Origin: Paragyromitra xinjiangensis
Taxonomy: Eukaryota > Ascomycota > Pezizomycetes > Pezizales > Discinaceae
Length of the DNA: 64,000 bases
Assembly: GCA_038503065.1 (NCBI GenBank)
Contig: JBCAMK010000003.1
Location: 930,001-994,000 of the forward strand
Direction of reading: 5' to 3'
Shown piece by piece: positions 15,101 to 39,800 of the stretch. The notes below the pieces were generated by a model, which saw only the letters and a list, made by a program, of their open reading frames with translations, had not been told where the DNA came from and did no database searches. The translations under genes were made by a program, and so were the position numbers. Position 1 is the stretch's first letter, and each line of letters begins with the position of its first letter.

Positions 15101-15500
15101 TTGAGAGGACCTAGCTCACACTATAGGTTGCAACAAACCGTCCTGGATTATACTCATGAACAAAGTTTTCATGAGAACTTTGCTGGTACTATCTAAAGCC
15201 GGACGGGTTCATTTCCAAAATACTATTGATAACACGTTTTTCTCGTTAGCAGCGCTAGCCGGTTTAGAGTTTTATGACTTTCATCTTCCACCGCAATAAT
15301 GTGTAGCATGTTTTACAATAGAAATCTACAGCAAACTTGGCTAATTGCTTTTACTAGTTTCAGGTTTCTGAAGTTGAAGAATCTTTAGTATTCCCCTAAC
15401 GATCATAACCACTGAACCATTCACTTATTTAAATATAGACTAAGAAAAATTTGAAAGCTTATTCTCTACAGCCGTGGTTAATGAATCAATTTACACATTG
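9180..15500. other. 6.3-kb gene-poor stretch
   Basis: Apart from the ferric reductase promoter side and a small foldback at 14005-14093, I see no coding region. The longest frames (about 90-120 codons) are frame-shifted fragments without recognisable similarity and are not split by convincing introns. Base composition drifts to AT-rich, consistent with old decayed repeats. Confidence 0.5.
14005..14093. mobile_element. Miniature foldback with 11-bp flanking direct repeats
   Basis: A 67-bp core (14016-14082) has inverted ends, TGTCTCGAACC and its complement GGTTCGAGACA. It is flanked by the direct repeat ACTGTCTACAA at 14005-14015 and 14083-14093. The size of the direct repeat would suit a Mutator-type insertion, but the element is very short and could also be a chance rearrangement. 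Confidence 0.4.
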
Positions 15501-15504
15501 CCCA

Positions 15505-15545
15505 CTACGGGGGCGCGTTGCTACCAAAGTCCAATTAAGGATTTT
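15505..15545 (+). repeat. Left terminal inverted repeat
   Basis: 41 bp beginning CTACGGGGGCGC. It is preceded by the CCCA duplication at 15501-15504. It pairs with 21157-21197, with mismatches only at four internal positions. Confidence 0.9.
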
Positions 15546-15732
15546 CCGAAAATCTCGCTTAGCGACCTTAGCAAAAGATGTAATGAACTATTTTCGCTTT
15601 GCTAGCGACTTGTAGCAGCATGTTAGTCAAAGAATATATATTTGATATACTCCAGGGTTGAATATTTTACTGGTCATGGTGGGTATTTCTAATTTCTTGA
15701 TTTATTGCGGTTCCCAACCCCATCTGTGACCA

Positions 15733-15860
15733 CTACCTGCCTCCACTACCTGTCTCCACTACCTGTCTCCACTACCTGCCTCCGCAACCACGCAACCACA
15801 CAACCACGCAACCACACAACCACGCAACCACACAACCACGCAACCACGCAGCCACGCAAC
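15733..15860. repeat. Tandem repeats upstream of gene A
   Basis: Four to five copies of a 14-mer (CACTACCTGTCTC plus one base) are followed by an array of CAACCAC(A/G) heptamers running to about 15860. The array lies inside the transposon, ending about 30 bp before the gene A start codon, so it occupies the promoter or 5' leader. Confidence 0.85.
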
Positions 15861-15892
15861 TACCTACCACTGGCGCAACCACTGGCACAACC

Positions 15893-17283
15893 ATGCCAGA
15901 AGCTTTTACTTATTTTGACATGCAGAGGATGATTTCTTCACAAGTACCCTTTGATAAATATGTCTTGGAACTTCATCCTCGCTGGCACAGGAAGGTGTCC
16001 AGTAAGATAGCTACTATAGAAAATCCTGGGATTTTGGAAGCGATCAAGGGAAAAGCATTTTCTTTTCAGGGCTCAGATGTTCGATTTCATGGAAAACAGT
16101 TGGGGATTCCTCTGATAGAGGGGGTTTGGCTACGAGTGCAGTTTGCCCTGCACGGACATGCTCTACCTGCCTCTAGAGAAGAGTATGACACCATGATTGA
16201 AGCCTGGGATAAGGAAAAGGACAAGAGGAAACACATCTTCATTCAGGGGGCAATCGTGGGGTCTAAAATGTGTATTATCTTGGTGGACCGGTAAGTATTC
16301 TCACAGGTCAGTTAATTTAATGAGTACTAATATTTTTTTACAGAAATAAGCTTATGACCATCACCGCTATACAAACTACCATCGCTTCTATTTGGTACAA
16401 TACCTCTTGGGCACCATGTCCGATCCAGGAACCTGATGCTTTTGAAAAAAACCTACGCTTTTCCAGCGCTCTACGGTCCCCAAAAAGAACCTCAGCGATC
16501 TACAAAGAAATGACCAATTCCTCCAACAATGATTTATGGAACGGTATTGGTACAAGCCACGCCGTTGAGATACTTCATCGAGCCTACATCCACCCTGAAC
16601 ACCACACCAATGACATTTTTCAAAAGTTTGAGTTGAAAAATAGACTTTTGGCAGCTATTCAATCGTTCTTTGAGATAGCCAACTCTCAGGAATACAAACA
16701 ACGTGTCCCTGCAGGAACAACCTCCGACCAAGCTTTTGATTTCTCAGATTCTGTCACACGCTACATCAATTCCCAGTTCACCAAGGCTTATAGGAAATCT
16801 GAAGTTGGTCTATCGCTTGCAGATTATAATATGCTACAACAAAACAACTTATTGCACCCTGATTGCGAGCCATTGAAGGAAGGATGGGAGGAAAATCTCC
16901 ATACAAGCACAGGAAGACTTGTGAAAAAAATTGTGCCTATTTACACGATTGAGCTAAGGAGTAAAAAGGGAGGAAAGTTGGATCCTGATGAAGATGAGGA
17001 AAATATTGAAAAAAAGGGCAAAGCTAAGTACACCTATACCTGCATTTTTCCTCAGGCCGGAGCAAAGAATGGGAGGATTCTTTCAAAAGAAGAGGCAGAG
17101 AAAAAACAAAGATATTTAAGCAAGGATGGGAACAAAGCTGAGATAGGAATTGCTAGTTTCATGGATACAATCCTGCAGATGCGTTTGAGAAAGGAAATAA
17201 CTGTTTCATCAAGTCATGTAGTAGCTATTCCGTCAGGTAAAAGAGGAAGGCCTAGGAAAAGAAAAATAACTGAGGAAGATTAA
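15893..17283 (+). CDS. Transposon gene A: 445-aa protein with C-terminal AT-hook-like basic tail
   Basis: Two exons, 15893-16290 and 16344-17283. The 53-nt intron has a GTAAGT donor and TTTACAG acceptor, and the total is 1338 nt. I do not recognise a domain. The N-terminal third is a mixed alpha/beta sequence with several aromatic residues (ELHPRWHRK, GVWLRVQFALHG). The middle is helical and Asn/Gln-rich. A strongly charged acidic/basic segment (DPDEDEENIEKKGKAK) follows. The C-terminus has KRGRPRKRK, an AT-hook-like GRP core that suggests minor-groove DNA binding and nuclear location. Its stop overlaps that of the convergent integrase gene in a shared TTAA. Being inside the inverted repeats with an intact frame, it probably serves transposition, for example end recognition. 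That role is inferred. Confidence 0.8.
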
Positions 17284-19089
17284 ATATCCTCGTCTGTAGT
17301 ATAACTATTATTGCTGTTAGTATCTGATATGTCATTTTCATCTTCTCCAAAAAATTCAGCCTCAATTTCTACACGCTTTGCTGTTTGATTTTTCCCTTCT
17401 TTTGGCTTGGGTAAAAGCGATAACGTAGGAGCTCTGTTTCCTTTAGCCACGTGTCTTCTAATATGATGACGTAAAAAGCAGTACATGCTGTAATGAGCCT
17501 TTTCTCCAGTTGGTAGTTTTTCCTCGTAACTAATAGTGAGCGGAAATCCTGCTTTTTTTAACAGGGCTTCACAGTACACCATAGTACTATCCGGCAGGTA
17601 GGCATCATGATCTAATTTATTCAGTAAATATTAATATTACTGGAGCTTTTATTACTTACCGTATAATTGACCGGTATCCATGTTCCTCAGTTTTTGATCC
17701 CTAATTTGAGCTATTGTTGTGCGTGAGGGTTGAGAGCCATAATCTGGAATACCGTCGGGAGGGAAATAATAGTTGTAATAGGGCTCTCCTGTCGGAAGAC
17801 TTGGTCTGTTGGTTTGTTTTCTGATTTTGTGGTCATTCCATCGTTCAACGAATTGATGTAATTGTGCTCGTAATAGTGGAAGATAAATATATAGAAGACA
17901 TATAGTATCTTCCATGTTATCCTCATCAAATAACCCGTTTTGTTGCAGCGCCCTGAAGTGTTTCTAGGTATAGGTATTAGTACGATGAGAATTCTGAAAA
18001 AATTAACTTGAAATATACTTACTTTCCAATCCGCTGTGGCCCCTTTGGTCAACTGCCCCCACCAGCTTTCAATTCTAACGTTTCGAGTTGAGGTTCCATA
18101 CCAGAACACCTCAGGGAAAGTAACATCCGCTTTATCCACCTGATGAAGCTTCCAGAATGATTCTGCTACCATCATTGTTTCAGTCCCTCTATCAGCTCGT
18201 AGATGTAATGGAATAATGTTATGAATCTCTGCAACCTGTAGAAACTGACTTAATACGCTAATCCCGGTTTTACCTGACACCCCACAATAAAACCATGTTA
18301 TATAACGTGAATAGGAATCTATTGCGGCATATATCTCGATGCCAAACATCTGGAGCTTCAAATGACCATCAATTGACCAGCACCAATTAGGTCCTGGGCA
18401 TACAAAATGTGTATGATGTCTATTGACTCCTCTCCATCGATTTTCTACACCCACTGGGTCCACAATCCTCAACGCTCTCCCAATCCTATGCCTATACTGA
18501 AGTTAGCTAGTTGAATAGGTTGTTAAATCAGAAAAATTATGATATACCCGGAAGCTAGGACACCCATGTTTCGTAGGTGTATCCAGACAGAGCGACGCCC
18601 AGAAAGAGTAATATTCCCTTTTTCTAGCTCCTTTTCAATGATAGTCTGTAGTTTGGCATCTGCTGCTACTCCTAAATCCTTAGAGCAGAGTCGTCTAAAC
18701 ATTCCCATTGATTTGCGGATGAGAACCAGTCGCCGATGTTCAATTTGGTAGCCATTGATTTGTAGAACCTGTAGTATCCTAATTAGTAATTACTACTAGT
18801 AGATGGTAGCTTTTATACTTACCCGCAGGATTTTTTTATCACTTAAACACTTTTTCCAAAACAAAAAGGCCAATTCTACACGGAGAGAGGATGTATCTTG
18901 TGTAAACTCATGTTTATTAAACTGCCACTCCTTTATATATTTCATGAATGAAGAGCGTGAACATTTGATATTTTGCGCATGTAGAATGTTCAATGTATCT
19001 GAGACTGTTTTATTTTCTTCCACGTAAAGATGATATATGTTGTATTTCTGTTGTAGTAGTTGTTCTCGTACTGAGGATATGCGGGACAT
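17280..19089 (-). CDS. Transposon rve-family DDE integrase/transposase
   Basis: Five exons: 19089-18823, 18768-18548, 18491-18023, 17963-17660 and 17611-17280 (1593 nt, 530 aa). All junction phases agree. An upstream in-frame ATG at 19122 would add 11 residues. Residues 1-60 look like a helix-turn-helix (LYVEENKTVSDTLNILHAQ, then SSFMKYIKEWQFNKH), resembling Clr5-type N-termini. The rve core follows: PGPNWCWSIDGH with Asp at about 204, LRADRGTET with Asp at about 263, and RIESWWGQ with Glu at about 304, the expected DDE triad. After it come FVERWNDHKIRKQTNRPS and a C-terminal tail with a basic Lys/Arg patch and acidic end. The GPN..W.IDGH signature belongs to a eukaryotic transposon integrase group distinct from retroviral and Gypsy integrases. 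It should cut and join the CTACGGGG ends. Confidence 0.88.
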
Positions 19090-19649
19090 TTTGTAGGATT
19101 TCGAGTGATATTGGATGACCAAGAATGTATATGATCAAGTGGAAAAATGTAACGATTTGAGGATTGATATGTATATATATCAGGGAGGCATTAAAGCCCA
19201 AGCCAAAGGTCTAAGACCCTTTCATGTATGGTTATCATATTAAAATAATTTATGTAACGAGTTTTGTTGATATCTATAAGACATTTACTACTGCAGCACA
19301 ACACAGACCCACCACAACAAAAAAACCTATCCCGTGTACTAGTATGTCTGTGATTTAAGTGCATAAAATGACTTGAATATGTAGGAATAATCAATCCTTT
19401 AAAATGCGGCAGTACTTACTAATTTGGTGACTTTCGCATAAGTATTCTAGATTGATACAAATGCAGTTATTGTGCTATAAGCCTCTATAATTATCCTATG
19501 CTCTATAATACCCACAACACCCCCCAGGTTTACTTAGTTTTCCCTGAACGCCTATTATTCCACTGTCACCCTATCTCTCTTATTTTTACATCTTTTTACA
19601 CATCTTCGGTCTATTTTATCCACATTTACTACCTCCATTCCGAGTCAAA

Positions 19650-20701
19650 ATGTCTACCTCACACACTCTTCCAACTGAATACTGTGGACAACGTGAAAAT
19701 ACTATCCACCACCCTACCACTGATAAAGTTTTTCGTTGTTGTGGGGAAAGAGTCCCAGTATATCTTTGTGAACCTGCTCCTGCCCCTGTACCTGCAACTA
19801 CTGGTGCTAGTAGTAGTAAACCCCTCACACGCAACAACAACCAACAACCCAAAAAACAGAAAAGGCAAAGTAATGCTCCGGAGACAATTATAATTTCTAG
19901 TCCTATAATGTCTCCTACTAAATCAACTTTTGTTAAAGCAGGTCAGTTTACTCATCGTCAAATCGTTGAACTTTACAGAAAAGGATCTATAACAAGAAGC
20001 TCTGCAGAAAAAAAATTAAAAAATAGCTCCACGTATGGGATCTCAGCAGCTATATCTGCTCCGGTTAAAAATGTGAAACAACCTATCCTGGCAAGAGATT
20101 CTCGGAAGATTGTGGTTTATGTGGGATCTACATCTGATAAATGGTCAGCATTTAAAAACCTGGGTAAGTGATTCTCTTTCTTAGTTTTATTAGACCCACT
20201 GGCAGCGGTGACAGTAGTATTAAATTGATTTCTCTAGGTGTTTCTTCTAAAGTATTTGATGACTTTGAAGAAACAATATTTGACGTGTCGGATTTTGCCC
20301 AATCGCTGCTGGAGTCATCACCAAACTGGATAGACGCAGAGGCTGTTAATGTTGATTATTTGAATATTCAACAGATAATCCCTGCAACTTTCTTTAGTGC
20401 TAAAGAGGGGCCACACCGATTGGAAGTTAGAAAAAAACCTATTACCGTTGGTGAATTTCTACTGGACTTTCCAGGAGGCGCTGCTACAAAAATCTATCTA
20501 ATAGTAAAATATTGGACGGCTAAGGATAGAGAGCAAAATCATCAGCAGCAAAGAGATGTTTCTCAGGCTTTCATGCGAAAAGTTAAAAGGGAAACTGGAT
20601 TGGATTATCTCAGTGATTCTGATATGGAAATAAAAGAGGAACCAGGTACTAGATACAGAATGCTATCTGTAGGGCACGAGGTAAAAAATCACCCTAAATA
20701 A
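19650..20701 (+). CDS. Transposon gene C: 325-aa protein of unknown function
   Basis: Exons 19650-20163 and 20238-20701 (978 nt). The intron runs from a GTAAGT donor to a TCTCTAG acceptor; it is the only acceptor among several AGs that keeps the frame. I do not recognise a domain. The N-terminal 30 residues hold a Cys/His cluster (EYCGQRE, IHH, FRCCGERVPVYLC) that might bind zinc. A Pro/Ala/Thr-rich linker and a basic stretch (NNQQPKKQKRQ) follow. The second half is an acidic/aromatic globular region including SSPNWIDAEAVNVDY and GEFLLDFPGGAATKIYLIVKYW. It is transcribed divergently from the integrase across a 560-bp intergenic region that probably holds both promoters. Confidence 0.78.
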
Positions 20702-20751
20702 ATAAATATAAATACATACTAATTAGCATTATAACAAAGAAGCCACAGCCG

Positions 20752-21087
20752 ATGAAAAGAACAGCCTCTGGTCGACATATTTTTGAGGAAGAAGAAGATT
20801 CTCAGTCCCCTCCAGCTACCAAACGGCATAGAATGGAATCCCCTGATTTGCCGGTACTTCCTGTTCTTGAGTACTCCTCTCCACTCAGGTCTGAATCACC
20901 AGTACTACCACCTATTCCTTCGTCACCTCCCCATGTTCAACAAGCACAAGCAAAACGAATAATAAAAAAAAAAACTTTGGAGACTCAGACCGAAAAGGGA
21001 GGAAGTGAAGGAGAGCCTGAGGCTGAAGAGGTTGAAAAGGCCCCAGCAAGGATTACTAGGCTGCGAGTCAGAAAAAAGACAGGCTAA
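20752..21087 (+). CDS. Transposon gene D: small basic, proline-rich 111-aa protein
   Basis: A single open frame begins MKRTASGRHIFEEEED. It contains ATKRHR and KRIIKKK patches resembling nuclear localisation signals, a Pro/Ser-rich centre (VLPPIPSSPPH) and a basic end RLRVRKKTG. It lies 50 bp after gene C and 70 bp before the right terminal repeat. It may be a separate gene or a further exon of gene C, since the gap is intron-sized and ends in CCACAG just before its ATG. No known family is recognised and the protein looks largely disordered. Confidence 0.55.
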   Translation: MKRTASGRHIFEEEEDSQSPPATKRHRMESPDLPVLPVLEYSSPLRSESPVLPPIPSSPPHVQQAQAKRIIKKKTLETQTEKGGSEGEPEAEEVEKAPARITRLRVRKKTG

Positions 21088-21156
21088 TTAATTTTTGTAT
21101 TTTTGAAATTCTCTAATTTTTATCTTTTGGTGTTCTCAATTTTCGTTGCAATGCCC

Positions 21157-21197
21157 AAAATCCTTATTTGGACTTTGGTAGTTATGCGCCCCCGTAG
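21157..21197 (-). repeat. Right terminal inverted repeat
   Basis: 41 bp read inward on the minus strand from CTACGGGGGCGC. It is followed by the second CCCA duplication at 21198-21201. Confidence 0.9.
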
Positions 21198-21269
21198 CCC
21201 ACACAAATATGGTGAGTAAATGTGCAAATAAATGTGCTTTTGGGGGATGAGTGTGGTAAATGTACTACC

Positions 21270-21500
21270 TGATTCATTTCCCAACCCCTAATACACATTG
21301 CCTGATGCCTTTCTTGATGCCTTTCCTCAGTATACATTTGCTGATGCCTTTCCTGATACTTTTGTTATACACATTTCCTGATGCCTTTGCCAACTACACC
21401 CTTCCTGATGCCTTTCCTGATACTTTGCTATACACATTTCCCGATGCCCTCGCCAACTACACATTTCCTGATGCATTTCCTGATGCATTTCCCAAAAGAT
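21270..21500. repeat. Tandem repeat, about 63-bp period, built on TTTCCTGATGCC
   Basis: Units of about 63 bp containing CCTGATGCCTTTCCTGATAC, then a TATACACATTTCC segment and GCCAACTACAC, recur two to three times with degenerate ends. The array lies about 70 bp outside the transposon right end. It is open in one frame (FPDAF... repeats), but I do not regard it as a gene. Confidence 0.75.
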
Positions 21501-31367: not shown

Positions 31368-31537
31368 TACATAGATATATAGATAGATACATAGAATAAA
31401 GCAATTGTCATGCTCCGTCTCCCCTTCACTTCACCCCCTACATTTGCACCTTCCTATTCCGGCCACCTAACCTCCTCACTTTTGTGAAAATTTTTTCACC
31501 ACACCAAAAACCTCAGCTTCACTCCTAGCATACAGTG

Positions 31538-33043
31538 ATGGCTGAATTTCCCCCGGTTGCCCTCCCCCCCCCCTCCTCCAGGGCTCCCTCCCGAACCACT
31601 TCCCCCCTCAACTACAACCAACCCACCAACAGACCATCCACCCCTGACTTGGTTCCCAAGACAGTCCTGGACTCTATCTCTGATGTCCTTCGCGACTTCA
31701 CTCATCACCAAGGCTTTTCTGACTCCCCCGTCGCTAGCCTTCTCTCCCAGCTTGATCTGGCAGAGCCATCCCCCGTTGAGGCTATTCTCCTCACCATCGC
31801 CCTTTCTACCGCCAGCCAACTCGCCAATCTCTCTTCGAGAGTCACCAGCTTCGAAACAGCCCTTTTAGGGCTCCTGAACAAGCCCCACTCTCCCCCCCTC
31901 CCCTCCAACACCATTTCACAACTTCAAACCTCAGTCGCGCTTCTCTCCGACCAGGTTTCCCTCCTCCCTAAGAACCTCAAAAATCCTGCCCCTCCTCCTG
32001 CCCCCCCGGCGGCAAAAAAACCTAAAACATTTGCCGATGCGGCCAAAGCTCACCAACAATCCGAACCTCAGGTTCCTAAGGCAAAAAAGAACGCCACCAG
32101 CAAAGACGGTAAAGAAAAGGAAAAGAAATCTCCTCTTCCCACTGCATTCAGACGTTTCTTCGCCACGCGCAACACACCTGAACCCTTCGATGACCCTGCT
32201 TCCCTCGCTGCTTCCCTCCCCATACACCTTGGTCGCGCCCTCAGGGCAGCCAACTTTCGTGATGATCTCTCCGTTTCCCTCTCCGTTACTATTAACGCGA
32301 GAGGTACCATAACCCTCCTCGCCGACCCCTTCACCCCAGCCCTAGAATTTATCCAATATTTTTCCCTCCTCACTAAAGTCCTGAACGAAAACTGCCCTGT
32401 TAAGGAAAACCCGTTCTTGTCCCTCAGATCTGCCCCTACCGACGTGGACCTTGCCATCCACAACATCCCCATCCATGTCCTCCCCGCTGATGACATAACA
32501 ACACTCATGTCTGACGCCGTCCTCTTTGCAACAAACGTTCAGATCACCAAAGCCCGCTACCTCAAACCCAAACCCTCAGATCGTGAAGGGAAAAAGACAA
32601 CCTCTGTTGTTATCTCTTGCTCTCCAGAAGACGCAAAAAAGATAGGTTCTACTATCCGCCTCTTCTCCAGACCCCGCAAAACCCACCTAATGTGGTCCGA
32701 CTCCCCCACCACCCAATGCCATTTCTATCAAAAATTTGGCCACTCCGACATCCGCTGCACCGAAGTAAAGAATAAAGGCATTGGTCAATCAACTGCCACT
32801 TGCTCAATATGTGCGGGCCCTCATCCCACATCCGCCCACCGCTGCACCATCCCCACCTGCCCCGGTGGTGGCTTCATTAAACGCATTCCCAACTGCTGCC
32901 CCAACACTCCAACCAAATGTGCCAATTGTCAAGGCCCTCACCAAGCAACCGATCCATCCTGTCCCACCCGCAAAGCTGCTTTCGAAAAAGCCCTTTCCCG
33001 CAGATCCCAGGCTGCCCCTACTGATACCAATATGTCTATTTAA
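31538..33043 (+). CDS. LINE ORF1: gag-like RNA-binding protein with zinc knuckles, 501 aa
   Basis: It begins MAEFPPVALPPPSSR. The N-terminal 150 residues are Pro/Ser-rich with a helical segment (LTIALSTASQLANLSSRV). A basic linker (AKKNATSKDGKEKEKKSP) and a globular central region follow. The C-terminus has three knuckle-like motifs: CHFYQKFGHSDIRC, CSICAGPHPTSAHRC and CANCQGPHQATDPSC. The first has Tyr in place of the second Cys. ORF1 proteins coat LINE RNA and escort it to the nucleus. The stop TAA at 33041-33043 overlaps the ORF2 ATG as TAATG. Confidence 0.9.
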   Translation: MAEFPPVALPPPSSRAPSRTTSPLNYNQPTNRPSTPDLVPKTVLDSISDVLRDFTHHQGFSDSPVASLLSQLDLAEPSPVEAILLTIALSTASQLANLSSRVTSFETALLGLLNKPHSPPLPSNTISQLQTSVALLSDQVSLLPKNLKNPAPPPAPPAAKKPKTFADAAKAHQQSEPQVPKAKKNATSKDGKEKEKKSPLPTAFRRFFATRNTPEPFDDPASLAASLPIHLGRALRAANFRDDLSVSLSVTINARGTITLLADPFTPALEFIQYFSLLTKVLNENCPVKENPFLSLRSAPTDVDLAIHNIPIHVLPADDITTLMSDAVLFATNVQITKARYLKPKPSDREGKKTTSVVISCSPEDAKKIGSTIRLFSRPRKTHLMWSDSPTTQCHFYQKFGHSDIRCTEVKNKGIGQSTATCSICAGPHPTSAHRCTIPTCPGGGFIKRIPNCCPNTPTKCANCQGPHQATDPSCPTRKAAFEKALSRRSQAAPTDTNMSI

Positions 33044-35636
33044 TGAATAGTACAACCTCAACACCACAGGAATTTAAAACCTTTTCAATCATACAACACA
33101 ACACTGCTGGGAGCTCGTCTGTGTTTCACTCCTTTTTCTCATCAATTGATCGCTCCACCCCGATCATCTTAATTCAAGATCCTTTTCTCTGGAATCACAA
33201 ACCACTTTGTGTGCCAGGGTATAATGTTCTCTATCCACCCGTCACTCAACCCAAAAAAGTCAGAGTGTGCATCTACATTAACATTTCCTTTGTTCAATTA
33301 TTAAAAATATCGTTTCTTCCCCTGTTTTACGATAGAGATGACATGGTTGGCATCATGCTATCATCCACTGAAGGTTTCTTTTCTTCCAACAACAAACAAC
33401 TTCAAATTATCAATTTATACAATCGCAAACGTATAGATTCACCCGGTCACCATATACACCCCTCCCTCATCTTTCCAGAAACAAGTATCCCTACTCTTAT
33501 TGCGGGCGACTTTAACATTCATCATTCCTCAACAGATCCAAACAGAATCCTTTCCCACAATGAAAAAACCCAATCGGACAAATATTTCTCCGCCGCTTTT
33601 TCATCCAACTTCACTGCCGTTAACAACCCCGGGAGCTTCACCCGCTTCCCATACGATTCCCATTCCAGACCAAGCGTAATTGACCTCACATTTGTCAACT
33701 ACTCCCTTCTTCCCTTTTTACTACAGTGGTCCAACGACCTCCCTCCTTCAGGCTCTGATCACACTTGCATCAAAACAATTCTCTCCCCCCTCTTTTCTTC
33801 TTCTTCACCTCCGATTCCGAATTGGCCATTAGCCGATTGGAGTAGCATAATACCTGCACTCCAACAAGTTACTATTTTTCCCCCAACTAATCCTGATATT
33901 GATTCCTGGTTTACCCATAACCTCTCTCAAATCACCACTCCACTTCTCCTTTACACACCAAAAAAACGACTCACTTCTTGGTCTAAGAAATGGTGGTCCT
34001 CTGAAATCTCAGAACTCCGTCGCATATTTCATTCAGTCTCCCGGGCCCATAGAGCCCGCTATCATCATCAACGTCCCCCCCCTTCTGAAGAAGTCAAAAA
34101 GGCGAAAAATGCCTATTTTAAAGCAATCTCGCAGGCAAAGAAAGCCCATTGGAACAACTTCCTCTCCAACGCCTCCCCCGCCAATGTTTGGGCCGCTAAA
34201 AGACTCAAAACGGCTAACAACATCACCCAACTTCCCTCCCTCCCCAATGCCACCACTCCACAGGAAATTAATTCTTCCCTTCTTAATCATTTTTTTCCCC
34301 CCAGAATTAACCCCTCTCCCCCCCTTCCCACCTTTTTTCCCGAACATCTCCCCATTTCTCCTGATGAGGTCAGTGCCGCATTAGCGAAATCCTCCAATTC
34401 TTCCACTCCAGGCCCCGATTCCATCCCTTATTCTGTTTGGAAAAGAATCAACCGTCACCTGCCTTCTCTTCTTCCGTTGCTCCTCACTCCACTCATGCAA
34501 TTCGGATACCACCCCATTTCCCTTAAAAAGGCCAATGGTATCGTCCTCCCCAAACCAAATAAACCAACTTATTCTCTTCCTTCCTCGTTTAGAGTTATAG
34601 TTCTTCTCGAAACTATCTCCAAAATTCTCGAACGCATTGTTGCAAATCGCCTAGCTAACATCGCACATCATCTTTCACTCATCCACCCTGGGCAATGCGG
34701 TTCTTTGAAACGCATCTCAGCGGCAGATGCCGCTACGGCTCTTATTCAAGATGTTCGCACCCTCCAAGCCGCGGACCTCAAAGTTTCTACTCTTTTCCTC
34801 GATATCAAAGGGGGCTTTGACAATGTCAACCCCATTATTCTTCAAGCTCGTCTTCTTTCCCATGGAGTTCCTCCATATCTTGTTTTTTGGATTATTTCCT
34901 TTCTTTCTCAACGTGAATGTCGCCTTTTATTTCAAGGTGCTGCTCATGATTTTCATCCAGTTTCAGTAGGAGTACCCCAAGGGTCCCCTATCTCTCCTTT
35001 ATTATTTGTTATTTATGTTTCTCCTCTTCATATTTTGTCTTCTTTATCTACTATTGTTCTTTCATATGTAGATGATTTTGCCCTCACTGTCGCAAGCAAA
35101 TCCATCCACACCAACATCCGACTACTTGAAGCTGCCGCCTCCGATATCGAAACCATTGGGGCAGCAATCGAAGTACCTTTTTCCATTCCCAAAACAGAAC
35201 TCATCCACTGGGTTACCGCTCGCAACCGACTTCCTCCTTCTTCTCATAACCTCCCCATTATTATCCAAGGAAATTCCTTCCCTCCTCAAAATCTTGTCCG
35301 CTGGTTGGGGTTCTGGTTTTCTACTAACATGAACACCGACGCACACTTTCTTCGCCGTCTCCAATCAGCCCAAAAAGCTTTTTTCGCCATCAAATCACTT
35401 GCTCCACCAGGAGCTGGTTTAAACTCCCTCAACTGCCGTCGACTAGCTCAAGGCCTCATCCTTCCCATCTTATCTTACGGAATGGCTATTTTTACCCCCT
35501 CCTCCAATAGTTTATCTAAAATCAACCCCTTCTGGAACTCGGTTCTAAGATGGGTCACAAATTCCTTTAGATCCACCAATATTGCAGCCCTCACTAGAGA
35601 AGCTTGCCTTCCTCCCATCCTCCCTTTTAGCCTCTA
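33043..35636 (+). CDS. LINE ORF2, 5' portion: apurinic-type endonuclease and reverse transcriptase
   Basis: The ATG overlaps the ORF1 stop. The exonuclease-endonuclease-phosphatase domain spans about residues 10-245, with QHNTAGSS, IAGDFNIHHSS and the C-terminal SDHTCIKT. The reverse transcriptase spans about 440-760: LLETISKILERIV, FLDIKGGFDNVNP (catalytic Asp), GVPQGSPISPLLF, LSYVDDFAL (YVDD active site at about 674) and WLGFWFS. It nicks target DNA and copies LINE RNA from the nick. At 35636 the frame runs into the Gypsy long terminal repeat, which adds a short false C-terminus (to 35673). The true continuation is at 46108-46888; together they make 1124 codons. Confidence 0.92.
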
Positions 35637-36668
35637 TGTAAGACCGGTACTTCGCACCACTACTGAATTCTAAGCGAAGCTTTAGATAGCTCTCTAGACT
35701 CTGTAACTCGACCGGCTACTATCCGTAGCACAATACCCGAGCGCACGTCCTGACAACTTCTTATGAACCGCACAAAGGCAACGATAGTTTAAGCGAGATA
35801 AGGGTCGGGGCTGTTCCGTTGAAAGAACTTTCTCAATAGGAAGGACACGAGTGTTGAAGCGCGGCTATGCTTTAAACAACTCGATACGATGGAGAATTTA
35901 TCACGGAACAAAGTATGTTGGTAACAAAATAATATTGATAAGGCTCGTTCTTCCTCGATGATGATCGACTCAGAATTGACGTCCAATGCAAGAGTATTTA
36001 TATCCCGTCCTCTTTACTACTGTGTGTTCTTTGTAGCTTGGGTCGACGGACTAAACTATCTACTATTACAAATTGAACTAACTCGCTTATCCATTTATCC
36101 GACATCCTATCTGCTGCTCGTTATCTCCAACTTCCGACGCTTACCCCTCGTTCAGTAATCTTCGGATCGCCGTGGCGATGATACGGTTGTGACGGTTGCG
36201 TTCGCCCAATCGAGTAGGTGGTTACACGATATCGTTTTGTTGCGACAGCTGGTGTTTGGAGCCCCGTAGCGTGGGCAGGAGACCTCTGATGACTAATCCG
36301 AATAGCCCACGTGACTTGGCGCCCCAAGTTGCCCTATGAAGACCTCTCATACATACCCTCCGGGTCACGTTCCGCGGGAAGGGCGCCGTTGACGACCAAA
36401 GGGTTACTTTTAGTCTCCGGGACGCGGATATTTTGCGGGTGTCCCCCCTTCTCGATCCAGCGCTGCCAGCAGCGCAAGCGAAGGCAGGGTAACGGCCGGG
36501 TAACCGGGGAAGGCAGGGTAACTGCCTGGGAATAGGCTGGGAAGTCAATAGGAAGCCACTGGGGGGTCCAACGAAGACGGGAAGGTGACCAAATGGAAGG
36601 TAGGGTAACTCCCTACGTAGGTAGGGTAACAGGGAGACCACTGCACGCCTATAGCCATAGGTATAACA
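35637..36668 (-). repeat. Gypsy 3' LTR (left copy), 1032 bp
   Basis: In element orientation it starts TGTTATACC and ends CCGGTCTTACA-type (here GTACCGGTCTTACA), so TG...CA. It matches 45076-46102. By eye its right part (36120-36668) is identical to the other copy, while the left part carries about a dozen small clustered differences. Confidence 0.93.
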
Positions 36669-36820: not shown

Positions 36821-39800
36821 TCAGTAGAAAAATACAACATCTAAAACGCAAAGAAAATAAATTTGCAAACAGAGCATGCGCTGTTGGGGGTAGAGTCTAT
36901 GAAAATCGGCAACAGCTTCTGCGGCATTCCCAATTCGCCTCCCGGTTCCTGAGTTTTCATCATCCGAATATCCCACCCATTTGACAAGGTAGAACATCCT
37001 AAAGCCACGGCGGCGGCCACTTCCAGTAGGTCGTTTTTCGCTTCTGACTATATATTCCACCTCATACTCGAGTTGTCCTTCAATGTCGTCTGGCGGCGGT
37101 CTGTCTTGATTTCGTCCGGCCCGTATGCTGTGTCGGTAAGGTTCTAATAGGGAGACATGAAAGGTGGGAAATATTTTCCACCGTCCCCCAAGATCGAGGG
37201 TGCATGCTCTGGTTCCGACACGGGTAATGGGAAAGGGGCCATAGGATTTTGGTGCTAGTTTCCGAGTTGGACGCTTGGTTTTGATGTTACGTGCATCCAG
37301 CATTACTAGATCGCCGACCTTGAATGAAGGTTCTTCTTGTCGCTTTTTATCGAAGTATTTGTTCATGGTTGCTCGAGTTGCTTTGAGGGAGGAAGTTGCG
37401 AAATCATTAACTGTTTGAAGCCAGTGGGCGTAAAGTTTGGATGCAGGGTTCTTGACTTCCCTGTCTACTGTGAAGGTGGTTCGTGGATGGAATCCGTGGT
37501 TTGCAAAGAAAGGACTGATGCCGGTTGCAGAGGCTTCTGTATTGTTGTACGCGAACTCCGCCAAAGGTAAAAGGTCATACCAGTCGTCCTGATCGTAATT
37601 AACAAAATTTCTTAGGTAGGCTTCGAGTACTTGGTTGACTCGTTCGGTTTGTCCATCAGTCTGGGGGTGGAAGGCTGATGATTTGCTGGACTTGATCTCT
37701 AAAAGTTTGCATAGTGAGGTCCAGAATTCACCAGTGAATTTTGCGTCTCGATCAGAAACTATCTCCTTCGGCAGTCCATGCAACTTCCATACTTTATCCA
37801 CAAACGCCTTCGCCACGTCACTTGCCGTTGCTCTTTCTTCTAATGGGATGAAATGCGCCATCTTGGTGAACCGGTCGACCACTACACAGATGCAGGTATA
37901 TCCTGACTCAGGTAACTGGACAATGAAATCGGTTGATATCGACACCCATGGGGCGTACGGGGTCTCGCGGCTGCAGGAGACCATACTTCTTGTGACGAAC
38001 TGATTTGTTATGTTGACACGGGTCGCATTGAACGGACATAATCCGTTATCCAGGCGGTCATTCGGGGCCAGTAAAAGTTTCTCCTGGACTAGTTCAATTG
38101 TTTTGTCTATGCCGAAGTCTTGGCGACTTTTGAGTCGTGTTCGTTCTCTAGGATCAATGTTTTTAATTCTTCATTGTCTGGTACCGTCAACCTGTTTTTC
38201 CAAAAGAGGAGTCCATCCTTCACTGTGTAATGTTGGGATTTCTTGTCTGTGCTGCCTTGCGTTACCGATTGAAGGACTTCCTTGTATCCTTCATCCAACT
38301 CTACTTGCGAACTAACTTGCTCCAGGAAATCCGTGTCGAATTTTAGAACCTGAAGCGCGGTGAGGGAGGCTGTAGAAATGAGTAGCTCCTCACGAGGTGT
38401 ATTAGGATTAGAATTATAGTGGTGGTGGTTGCCATTGGAGGCCAGCTCCGAATAGCTCGTTCGTTTACCGTTTTCATAATTTACACCTGGGTCATCATCG
38501 TCTCTATGAATTAAGGATACGACAATTGACTTACTCGGGCGGCCAGTCATATCGAGCTGGCCGGTGCGCGAACATAGCTTCAACAGGCTGTGTTGTATCC
38601 CCTCCTTAGGGCGATACTCGGACGCCTAGACAGTGCGTCGGGCTTTCCTCCTGACGTTCGGTCGATAAATTATTTTAAAGTCGAATGACGACAAATATTC
38701 CGCCCATCTGGCCTGTCGACGGTTGAGAATTCGGGTTTCCTTCATAAAGTACTCGAGATTCTTGTGGTCGGTGTAGACAATGGCCTGAAGTTTACTTCCT
38801 CGAGGTAATGTCGCCATTCCTTAAAGGCGGTCACTATTGCTAGTAACTCCTTGTCGTGTACTTCATAATTCAATTCGGCTTTATTGAATTTTCGGGAGTG
38901 GAAAGCCACGGGGTGTAGCTTTTATCGATAATTTGGGAGAGGACGCACTTAAGGCAGATAATCTGGAGGCGTTTCCGGTTTCAACGACAGTCTGGCGTTC
39001 CGGCGCAAAATGGCAAAGGATGGGGGCGGTCGTGAAGGCTACTTTAAGGTATTCGAAGGCGATCGCTTGTTTATCTCCCCAGGTGGAATTGTTTGGGAGT
39101 CGCGCTTTGGTGAGCGAGTCAGGACTGGCGACTTGCGAGAAGTTTTCGATGAAACGTCGGTAGAAATTGGCAAAACCGATAAAAACTTGTACGTCGCGAA
39201 CGCTTCTTTCTTGCTTTCCCATGATAGGATTGATTCAACCTTTGCCAACGACATGGCCACACCTTTGTCTGAGATAATGTAGCCCAAGAATTCAACTTCC
39301 TTGGTATGAAAGATACTCTTGTTTATCGCTACAGCTAGTCCCTCCTCTTGCAACCGCTGCAAGAGTTTGGTTCTGGGACCTCATGTTCCTCACTGAGGCT
39401 AGAGTAAATGAGGATATCATCGATGTAAACAACGACACCCTGGTCCAAGAATTCACGGAGAACCTGTTGCATCATATCTTGGAAGGAAGCTGGCGCGTTA
39501 GCCAACCCGAAAGGCATAACGGTGTACTCAAAGTGGCCATAACGAGTGCGGAATGCAGTTTTCCACTCGTCTCCTTCTTTAATCCTGGTCAGGTGAAAAC
39601 CGTCGCGAGGTCCAGTTTGGTGAAGACTTTCGCCCCGTTCACCCTATCACGAAGCTCGGACATTAGCGGCAGGGGGTACCGGTTCTTCACTGTTACCTTA
39701 TTCAAGCCACGGTAGTCTACGCATAAGCGTAGGCCTCCGTTTGGTTTCGGCGCGAACAATATGGGAGATCCGGCAGGTGACTTGCTGGGTCTGATCTTCC

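Follow-up and report, generated by a model that had tools for sequence, protein, structure and literature searches.

We analysed a 64,000-nucleotide stretch of the genome of the fungus Paragyromitra xinjiangensis (assembly GCA_038503065.1, contig JBCAMK010000003.1, positions 930,001 to 994,000), referred to here as the window and numbered from its first letter. A preliminary description of this DNA had proposed a complete DNA transposon with defined ends and four genes, to be placed in an undescribed superfamily or a new branch of Ginger-like elements. The transposon is borne out by its inverted repeats, target duplications, further copies and empty sites. It was found to carry three predicted genes and to be of the known IS3EU type. 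The more interesting part, missed previously, is the resemblance of the product of gene 1 to a DNA glycosylase.

Structure of the element and its insertion site

The element runs from TACGG to CCGTA over 5,691 bp (positions 15506-21196). Inverted-repeat comparison and a search for ends placed its left terminal inverted repeat (TIR) at 15506-15545 on the forward strand, starting TACGGGGGCGC, and its right one at 21157-21196 on the reverse strand, finishing CCCCCGTA. TIRs of 41 bp had been described, and repeats of 41 nt that are 90% complementary do lie at 15505-15545 and 21157-21197. However, the base just outside TACGG varies among several other copies, and the outermost C/G were therefore assigned to the target-site duplication, leaving a TIR proper of about 40 bp. 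The earlier ends, and with them a length of 5,693 bp, thus lay one base too far out on each side. In place of a 4-bp CCCA duplication we found the 6-bp GCCCAC, present on the left at 15500-15505 and in identical form on the right at 21197-21202.

Further copies were sought in 26 stretches of the host genome, window included, using TA plus a near match as the query. This search yielded 33 ends, of which three had no partner within these stretches. After exclusion of two of the 17 pairings, which joined ends of neighbouring elements, 15 two-ended copies on 11 contigs were retained. TACGG stands at both ends of all 15, which partly follows from the construction of the search; the duplications are independent of it, and are perfect over 6 bp in 12 of the 15 copies and 7 bp long in one (C14, CCCCGTG), while those of the remaining two, both on C4, match crosswise only.

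When joined, the flanks of the window element matched 18 places beyond its own two flanks, and 17 of these matches cross the junction. Three of the 17 were aligned and agree with the joined flanks in 74, 74 and 64 of 80 columns around the junction, each holding a single target (GCCCAC twice and GCCCAG once). The window element is an inserted transposon, and the sequence that stood there before it can be recognised. It lies within a small dispersed repeat (15464-15505 and 21203-21300) to which the 18 further genome matches belong. The empty sites that had been called for do exist, as paralogous repeats rather than at orthologous loci.

The copies fall into three subfamilies that have the TIR sequence in common. 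Subfamily A (the window, C10, C15 and C11) and subfamily C (C21, C11, C9 and C6) contain genes 1, 2 and 3, while the members of subfamily B (C2, C9, C13, two on C4, C14 and C21) gave matches to the transposase alone, and measure 2.66-3.17 kb in six cases and 5.36 kb in one. The window and C10 copies are 97-99% alike.

Several copies have a history of their own. The two subfamily B copies at C4:133017-136183 and C4:141802-144969 (L023 and L034) are inverted and 99.9% alike, with duplications that match crosswise (TCGGAG/CTCCGA and CATACG/CGTATG), as an inversion of the intervening 5.6 kb by recombination between the copies would leave. The ends of a subfamily A copy at C11:1096531-1129401 lie 32.9 kb apart with the common duplication TGAAAC, the copy being split by long non-element stretches that are likely later insertions. 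One member each of subfamilies B and C lies at C21:137868-151978; the two are inserted 20 bp from each other, and each has a perfect duplication of its own. Elsewhere in the window, long open frames at 31529-35673 and 36821-38170 look, as judged by eye from their translations, like a long interspersed nuclear element (endonuclease/reverse transcriptase) and a Ty3-type integrase that finishes in a chromodomain-like part.

Gene content

Open frames with GT-AG introns led us to predict gene products of 445 (gene 1), 530 (gene 2) and 434 (gene 3) amino acids, all splice sites being predictions; open, spliced genes with a DDE integrase-type transposase among them had been described correctly. Gene 1 lies on the forward strand, and its exon 1 (15893-16290) begins MPE and encodes the N-terminal part of a predicted Fpg/Nei-type DNA glycosylase, with Pro2, Glu3 and, in the GK of the beta-hairpin, Lys68. 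By translation and profile matches, exon 2 (16344-17283) covers the H2TH region (NGIGTSHAVEILH..IHPE) and an AT-hook-like GRPRKRK tail. Gene 2 occupies the reverse strand with five exons: the N-terminus with a Clr5 domain (18823-19089; E 2.8e-6), exon 2 (18548-18768, splice prediction), the bulk of the integrase core matched by rva_4, including D204, D263 and E304 (18023-18491; E 2.2e-32), exon 4 (17660-17963, splice prediction) and exon 5 (17280-17611), which includes the stop and meets gene 1 tail to tail, with an overlap at the stop codon of that gene.

Gene 3, on the forward strand, was assembled from exons at 19650-20163 and 20238-20680, both from splice prediction, the latter with an in-frame intron junction, and at 20740-21087, a charged tail previously taken for a separate fourth gene. 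The second of its two in-frame introns (20681-20739; GAG/GTAAAA..AACAAAG/AAG) keeps the frame and joins the third and fourth frames of the preliminary description into a single protein. A canonical GTAAGT donor occurs at the homologous place in all three subfamily C copies L020, L021 and L024 (on C21, C11 and C9), each followed by an in-frame tail with a TRLRARK-like finish as in the window, and the Morchella gene model P0029 likewise extends beyond the position of this intron. In L010, of subfamily A, a stop comes earlier in the exon preceding the donor; in the C6 copy an in-frame donor leads to a different tail. On the strength of the in-frame intron and the donors conserved in subfamily C, we count three genes and not four.

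A tail so charged and basic would suit a nuclear protein. The structural model of the gene 3 product, with a predicted local distance difference test score (pLDDT) of 41, is too poor to be used, and no PDB profile match was better than E 0.4. Relatives of gene 3 were found three times, all Morchella proteins; one of them, LAJ45_08977 of Morchella importuna, has the neighbouring locus number to LAJ45_08978, the nearest transposase. The statement that three of the genes match nothing recognisable fails for gene 1; for gene 3, the matches are these Morchella proteins only.

The transposase and classification of the element

In an alignment of the window protein with all 29 database matches, each residue of the triad D204/D263/E304 is kept in 29 of the 30 rows; 58 residues separate the first two and 40 the last two. 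The product of gene 2 had been described as an rve DDE integrase; its core is of the integrase type, but the profile that it matches is rva_4, rve scoring only below its cut-off (E 0.005). A motif check found neither an H2C2 zinc finger nor a GPY/F motif in gene 2, and there was no H2C2 Pfam match.

Elements of the IS3EU/GingerRoot superfamily, in Repbase since 2013 and treated by Kojima and Bao in 2023, are described in the available text as ending in TA..TA, as producing duplications that are usually of 6 bp, and as lacking an HHCC domain (PMC10045372). For IS3EU elements of Pucciniales, an excerpt gives TAYGG..CCRTA ends and TIRs of over 30 bp (PMC12730594). The window element agrees in every feature compared: it has TA..TA ends, a 6-bp duplication, a TIR of over 30 bp and a DDE transposase lacking HHCC. 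By these features it is placed as an IS3EU-type element. The related element Styx of Zymoseptoria similarly has four open reading frames and a 36-bp TIR and was sought by its authors with a 6-bp duplication; it differs in its 7,927 bp and in its accessory frames (GATA, CCHC and DUF3577), and its main text never mentions a glycosylase (PMC10853768).

The integrase-like core and the sub-threshold rve match are what could be said for placing the element in a superfamily of its own or under Ginger. Ginger1 and Ginger2 do have such a core in common with the window element but, in the part of the account available, are known by TGTNR ends, 4-5-bp duplications and a zinc finger (PMC2836005). Against these stand TACGG ends, 6-bp duplications, rva_4 in place of rve, and no H2C2 or GPY/F motif found. 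Termini, duplication length and the zinc finger that was not found rule this placement out in our judgement, and we regard it as hardly credible. The ends and integrase match a family that already has a name, and the claim of novelty at superfamily level falls.

Gene 1 encodes a predicted Fpg/Nei-family protein

Its match to the Fpg/Nei profile, its predicted fold and its kept catalytic residues indicate that the product of gene 1 is a divergent, NEIL1-like member of the Fpg/Nei family. The predicted model has the H2TH domain and the overall fold of that family. In an alignment of 28 members, Pro2-Glu3 is retained in all 18 rows that reach the N-terminus and the beta-hairpin lysine in 18 of the 19 rows that cover its position; from known motifs and the order of the alignment, we take Lys68 to be the equivalent of the Fpg hairpin lysine. 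The likeness to NEIL1 and Fpg (MutM) thus comprises predicted fold, N-terminal Pro-Glu, hairpin Lys and H2TH, while the differences are an identity of about 14-18% in structure alignments, the replacement of the H2TH Asn by Thr, the AT-hook-like tail and the transposon-borne setting. From these features we infer a glycosylase/AP (apurinic/apyrimidinic)-lyase activity.

Several points weigh against this assignment. The single-protein Pfam matches to Fpg/Nei domains fall below the curated cut-off, and the activity itself is a prediction. Thr follows GIG in the H2TH motif of 26 of the 28 members, where NEIL1 has Asn; Asn is usual at this place in Fpg/Nei enzymes but does not define them. Moreover, confidence in the model is low over most of the C-terminal part: residues 338-368, 370-403 and 409-441 lie below pLDDT 50, as does most of the region of the zinc/zincless finger hairpin.

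The Thr replacement, together with the GRPRKRK tail and an AT_hook match in 4 of the 28 members, would also suit a protein that has lost catalysis and merely binds DNA, through H2TH and tail, so as to assist the transposase or regulate the element. We consider this distinctly improbable, as a mere DNA binder would have no need of the Pro2-Glu3 and hairpin Lys that almost every informative row keeps.

Other identities were considered for gene 1. P0004 bears the name of a GIY-YIG endonuclease at its source, which was rejected, there being no GIY-YIG Pfam match. Recent acquisition of gene 1 from the Fpg-like gene of the host is unsupported, the sole notable alignment covering 54 residues at 30% identity. 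Pfam matches such as Desmo_N, DUF6280 and SLBP fell below cut-off, had no second support and were taken as chance.

Conservation of the genes and the need for gene 1

Genes 1, 2 and 3 are conserved in a diverged subfamily. Exon by exon, the proteins of A and C are identical in about 55-69% of their residues for gene 1, 53-86% for gene 2 and 45-66% for gene 3, the last exon of gene 3 reaching about 31-33% over its whole and 64% over a short piece in C6. Ratios of nonsynonymous to synonymous substitution (dN/dS) were computed between the window and B or C copies in 22 comparisons, dS being not computable in eight, including all three of gene 1 exon 1. Exon 2 of gene 1 and exon 2 of gene 3 each gave 0.10-0.15, and exon 1 of gene 3 gave 0.36-0.39; in gene 2 the ratio was 0.04-0.06 for exon 3 and 0.14 for exon 4, the latter from a single pair with B. 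All these values are rough because synonymous sites are near saturation. Stop codons interrupt tested exons of some C copies (gene 1 in L021; gene 2 exon 3 in L020 and L021).

A glycosylase/lyase with a part in transposition itself, where it might trim 3' ends that are abasic or blocked and help to repair gaps at insertion or excision, would fit with the way gene 1 accompanies the transposase in two diverged subfamilies, also under strong constraint, and with the tail-to-tail finish of genes 1 and 2. Subfamily B, however, for which the transposase alone was matched, has perfect 6-bp duplications in four of seven copies and one of 7 bp. Insertion therefore needs no gene 1 in cis, and genes 1 and 3 are dispensable for it, at least with the help of other copies, which points to an accessory role. 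A part in transposition thus appears unlikely.

CpG decay and the modification machinery of the host

In four subfamily A copies (three short A fragments being left out), C-to-T changes number 52 per 274 CpG sites as against 39 per 1,997 other cytosines, a 9.7-fold excess. Six of the seven subfamily B copies were counted in overlapping sets: C9, C2, C13 and C4a gave 30 per 108 CpG against 73 per 881 other cytosines (3.4-fold), C9, C2 and C13 gave 20 per 103 against 68 per 867 (2.5-fold), and C4a, C4b and C14 gave 2 per 145 against 15 per 1,033, with no excess. The host genome contains methyltransferase domains at three loci, one separate H2TH gene and four TET/JBP matches, two of them above the Pfam cut-off (C6:1157158, C15:1341155, C1:3431858 and C12:824328; L029-L032).

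The CpG decay of subfamily A and the methyltransferase domains would speak for a gene 1 that counters a mutational attack, either like repeat-induced point mutation or by methylation-linked deamination, through excision of uracil, thymine or 5-hydroxymethyluracil before replication fixes them. Copies bearing gene 1, however, show no less CpG decay than transposase-only ones, and glycosylases acting on G:T or uracil are not usually of the Fpg/Nei kind; we judge this role quite unlikely. Protection from CpG decay by gene 1 is accordingly unsupported by the comparison of copies, although dead copies would decay either way.

Proposed role of the glycosylase

As a broad account, we put at about even chances an IS3EU-type transposon in which a DD(40)E transposase is accompanied by a NEIL1-like glycosylase that rids the element's DNA of modified or damaged bases, against host silencing or mutation, and by a helper gene. 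A narrower version, which we offer tentatively and hold to be somewhat less probable, is a fungal IS3EU lineage with its own base-excision eraser, the glycosylase performing, with TET/JBP in trans, the excision half of an active demethylation that would remove methylated cytosines and so oppose silencing.

In this mechanism the transposase would likely move the element by cut and paste. CpG methylation would act on the element, TET/JBP enzymes from genes at other places in the genome would oxidise 5-methylcytosine, and the gene 1 protein would excise an oxidised product such as 5-carboxylcytosine (5caC), as human NEIL1 does, and cut the backbone. Host repair would then restore C, the benefit to the element being anti-silencing, and the product of gene 3 may act as a helper. 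A published abstract reports that NEIL1 acts directly on 5caC and not on 5-formylcytosine.

Three observations weigh on the other side. CpG decay is not lower in the A copies that bear gene 1 than in the transposase-only B copies. In stretches of about 3.4 kb around each of the four TET/JBP matches there is no gene 1 or gene 2 match, and any pairing would therefore be in trans. Fpg/Nei enzymes, finally, mostly repair oxidised bases, so that general repair is possible.

Conclusions

TET/JBP dioxygenases, enzymes that would set active demethylation going, are known from fungal transposons. A close parallel is described in PMC12730594: TET+ IS3EU elements of Tuber indicum and Pucciniales, the latter with TAYGG..CCRTA ends, also carry an enzyme thought to erase DNA modification, but it is a dioxygenase beside an alpha-kinase gene, and the available text mentions a glycosylase once, for thymine DNA glycosylase. 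The genes described for IS3EU/GingerRoot, as far as the text of PMC10045372 is available, are likewise transposase, TET/JBP and alpha-kinase, with no Fpg/Nei glycosylase, unlike the window element. A search of the open-access literature for Morchella together with IS3EU returned PMC12730594 alone, and broader searches showed nothing closer to a transposon-borne glycosylase than that paper among the matches listed. No report of a transposon-borne Fpg/Nei glycosylase was found in that literature, 5.39 million open papers searched in part by title; most subscription papers, preprints and Repbase lie outside it, and a named family entry may exist. The element is thus a member of a known superfamily whose glycosylase gene is unreported as far as the open-access literature was searched.

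Genes that fall below Pfam thresholds in elements of the "transposase plus unknowns" kind can be identified through family profiles combined with fold. For the enzyme that would finish a demethylation begun by TET/JBP, a glycosylase that travels on a transposon and keeps its catalytic residues offers itself directly as a candidate; if this is true, base excision repair would join the weapons of mobile DNA against silencing.
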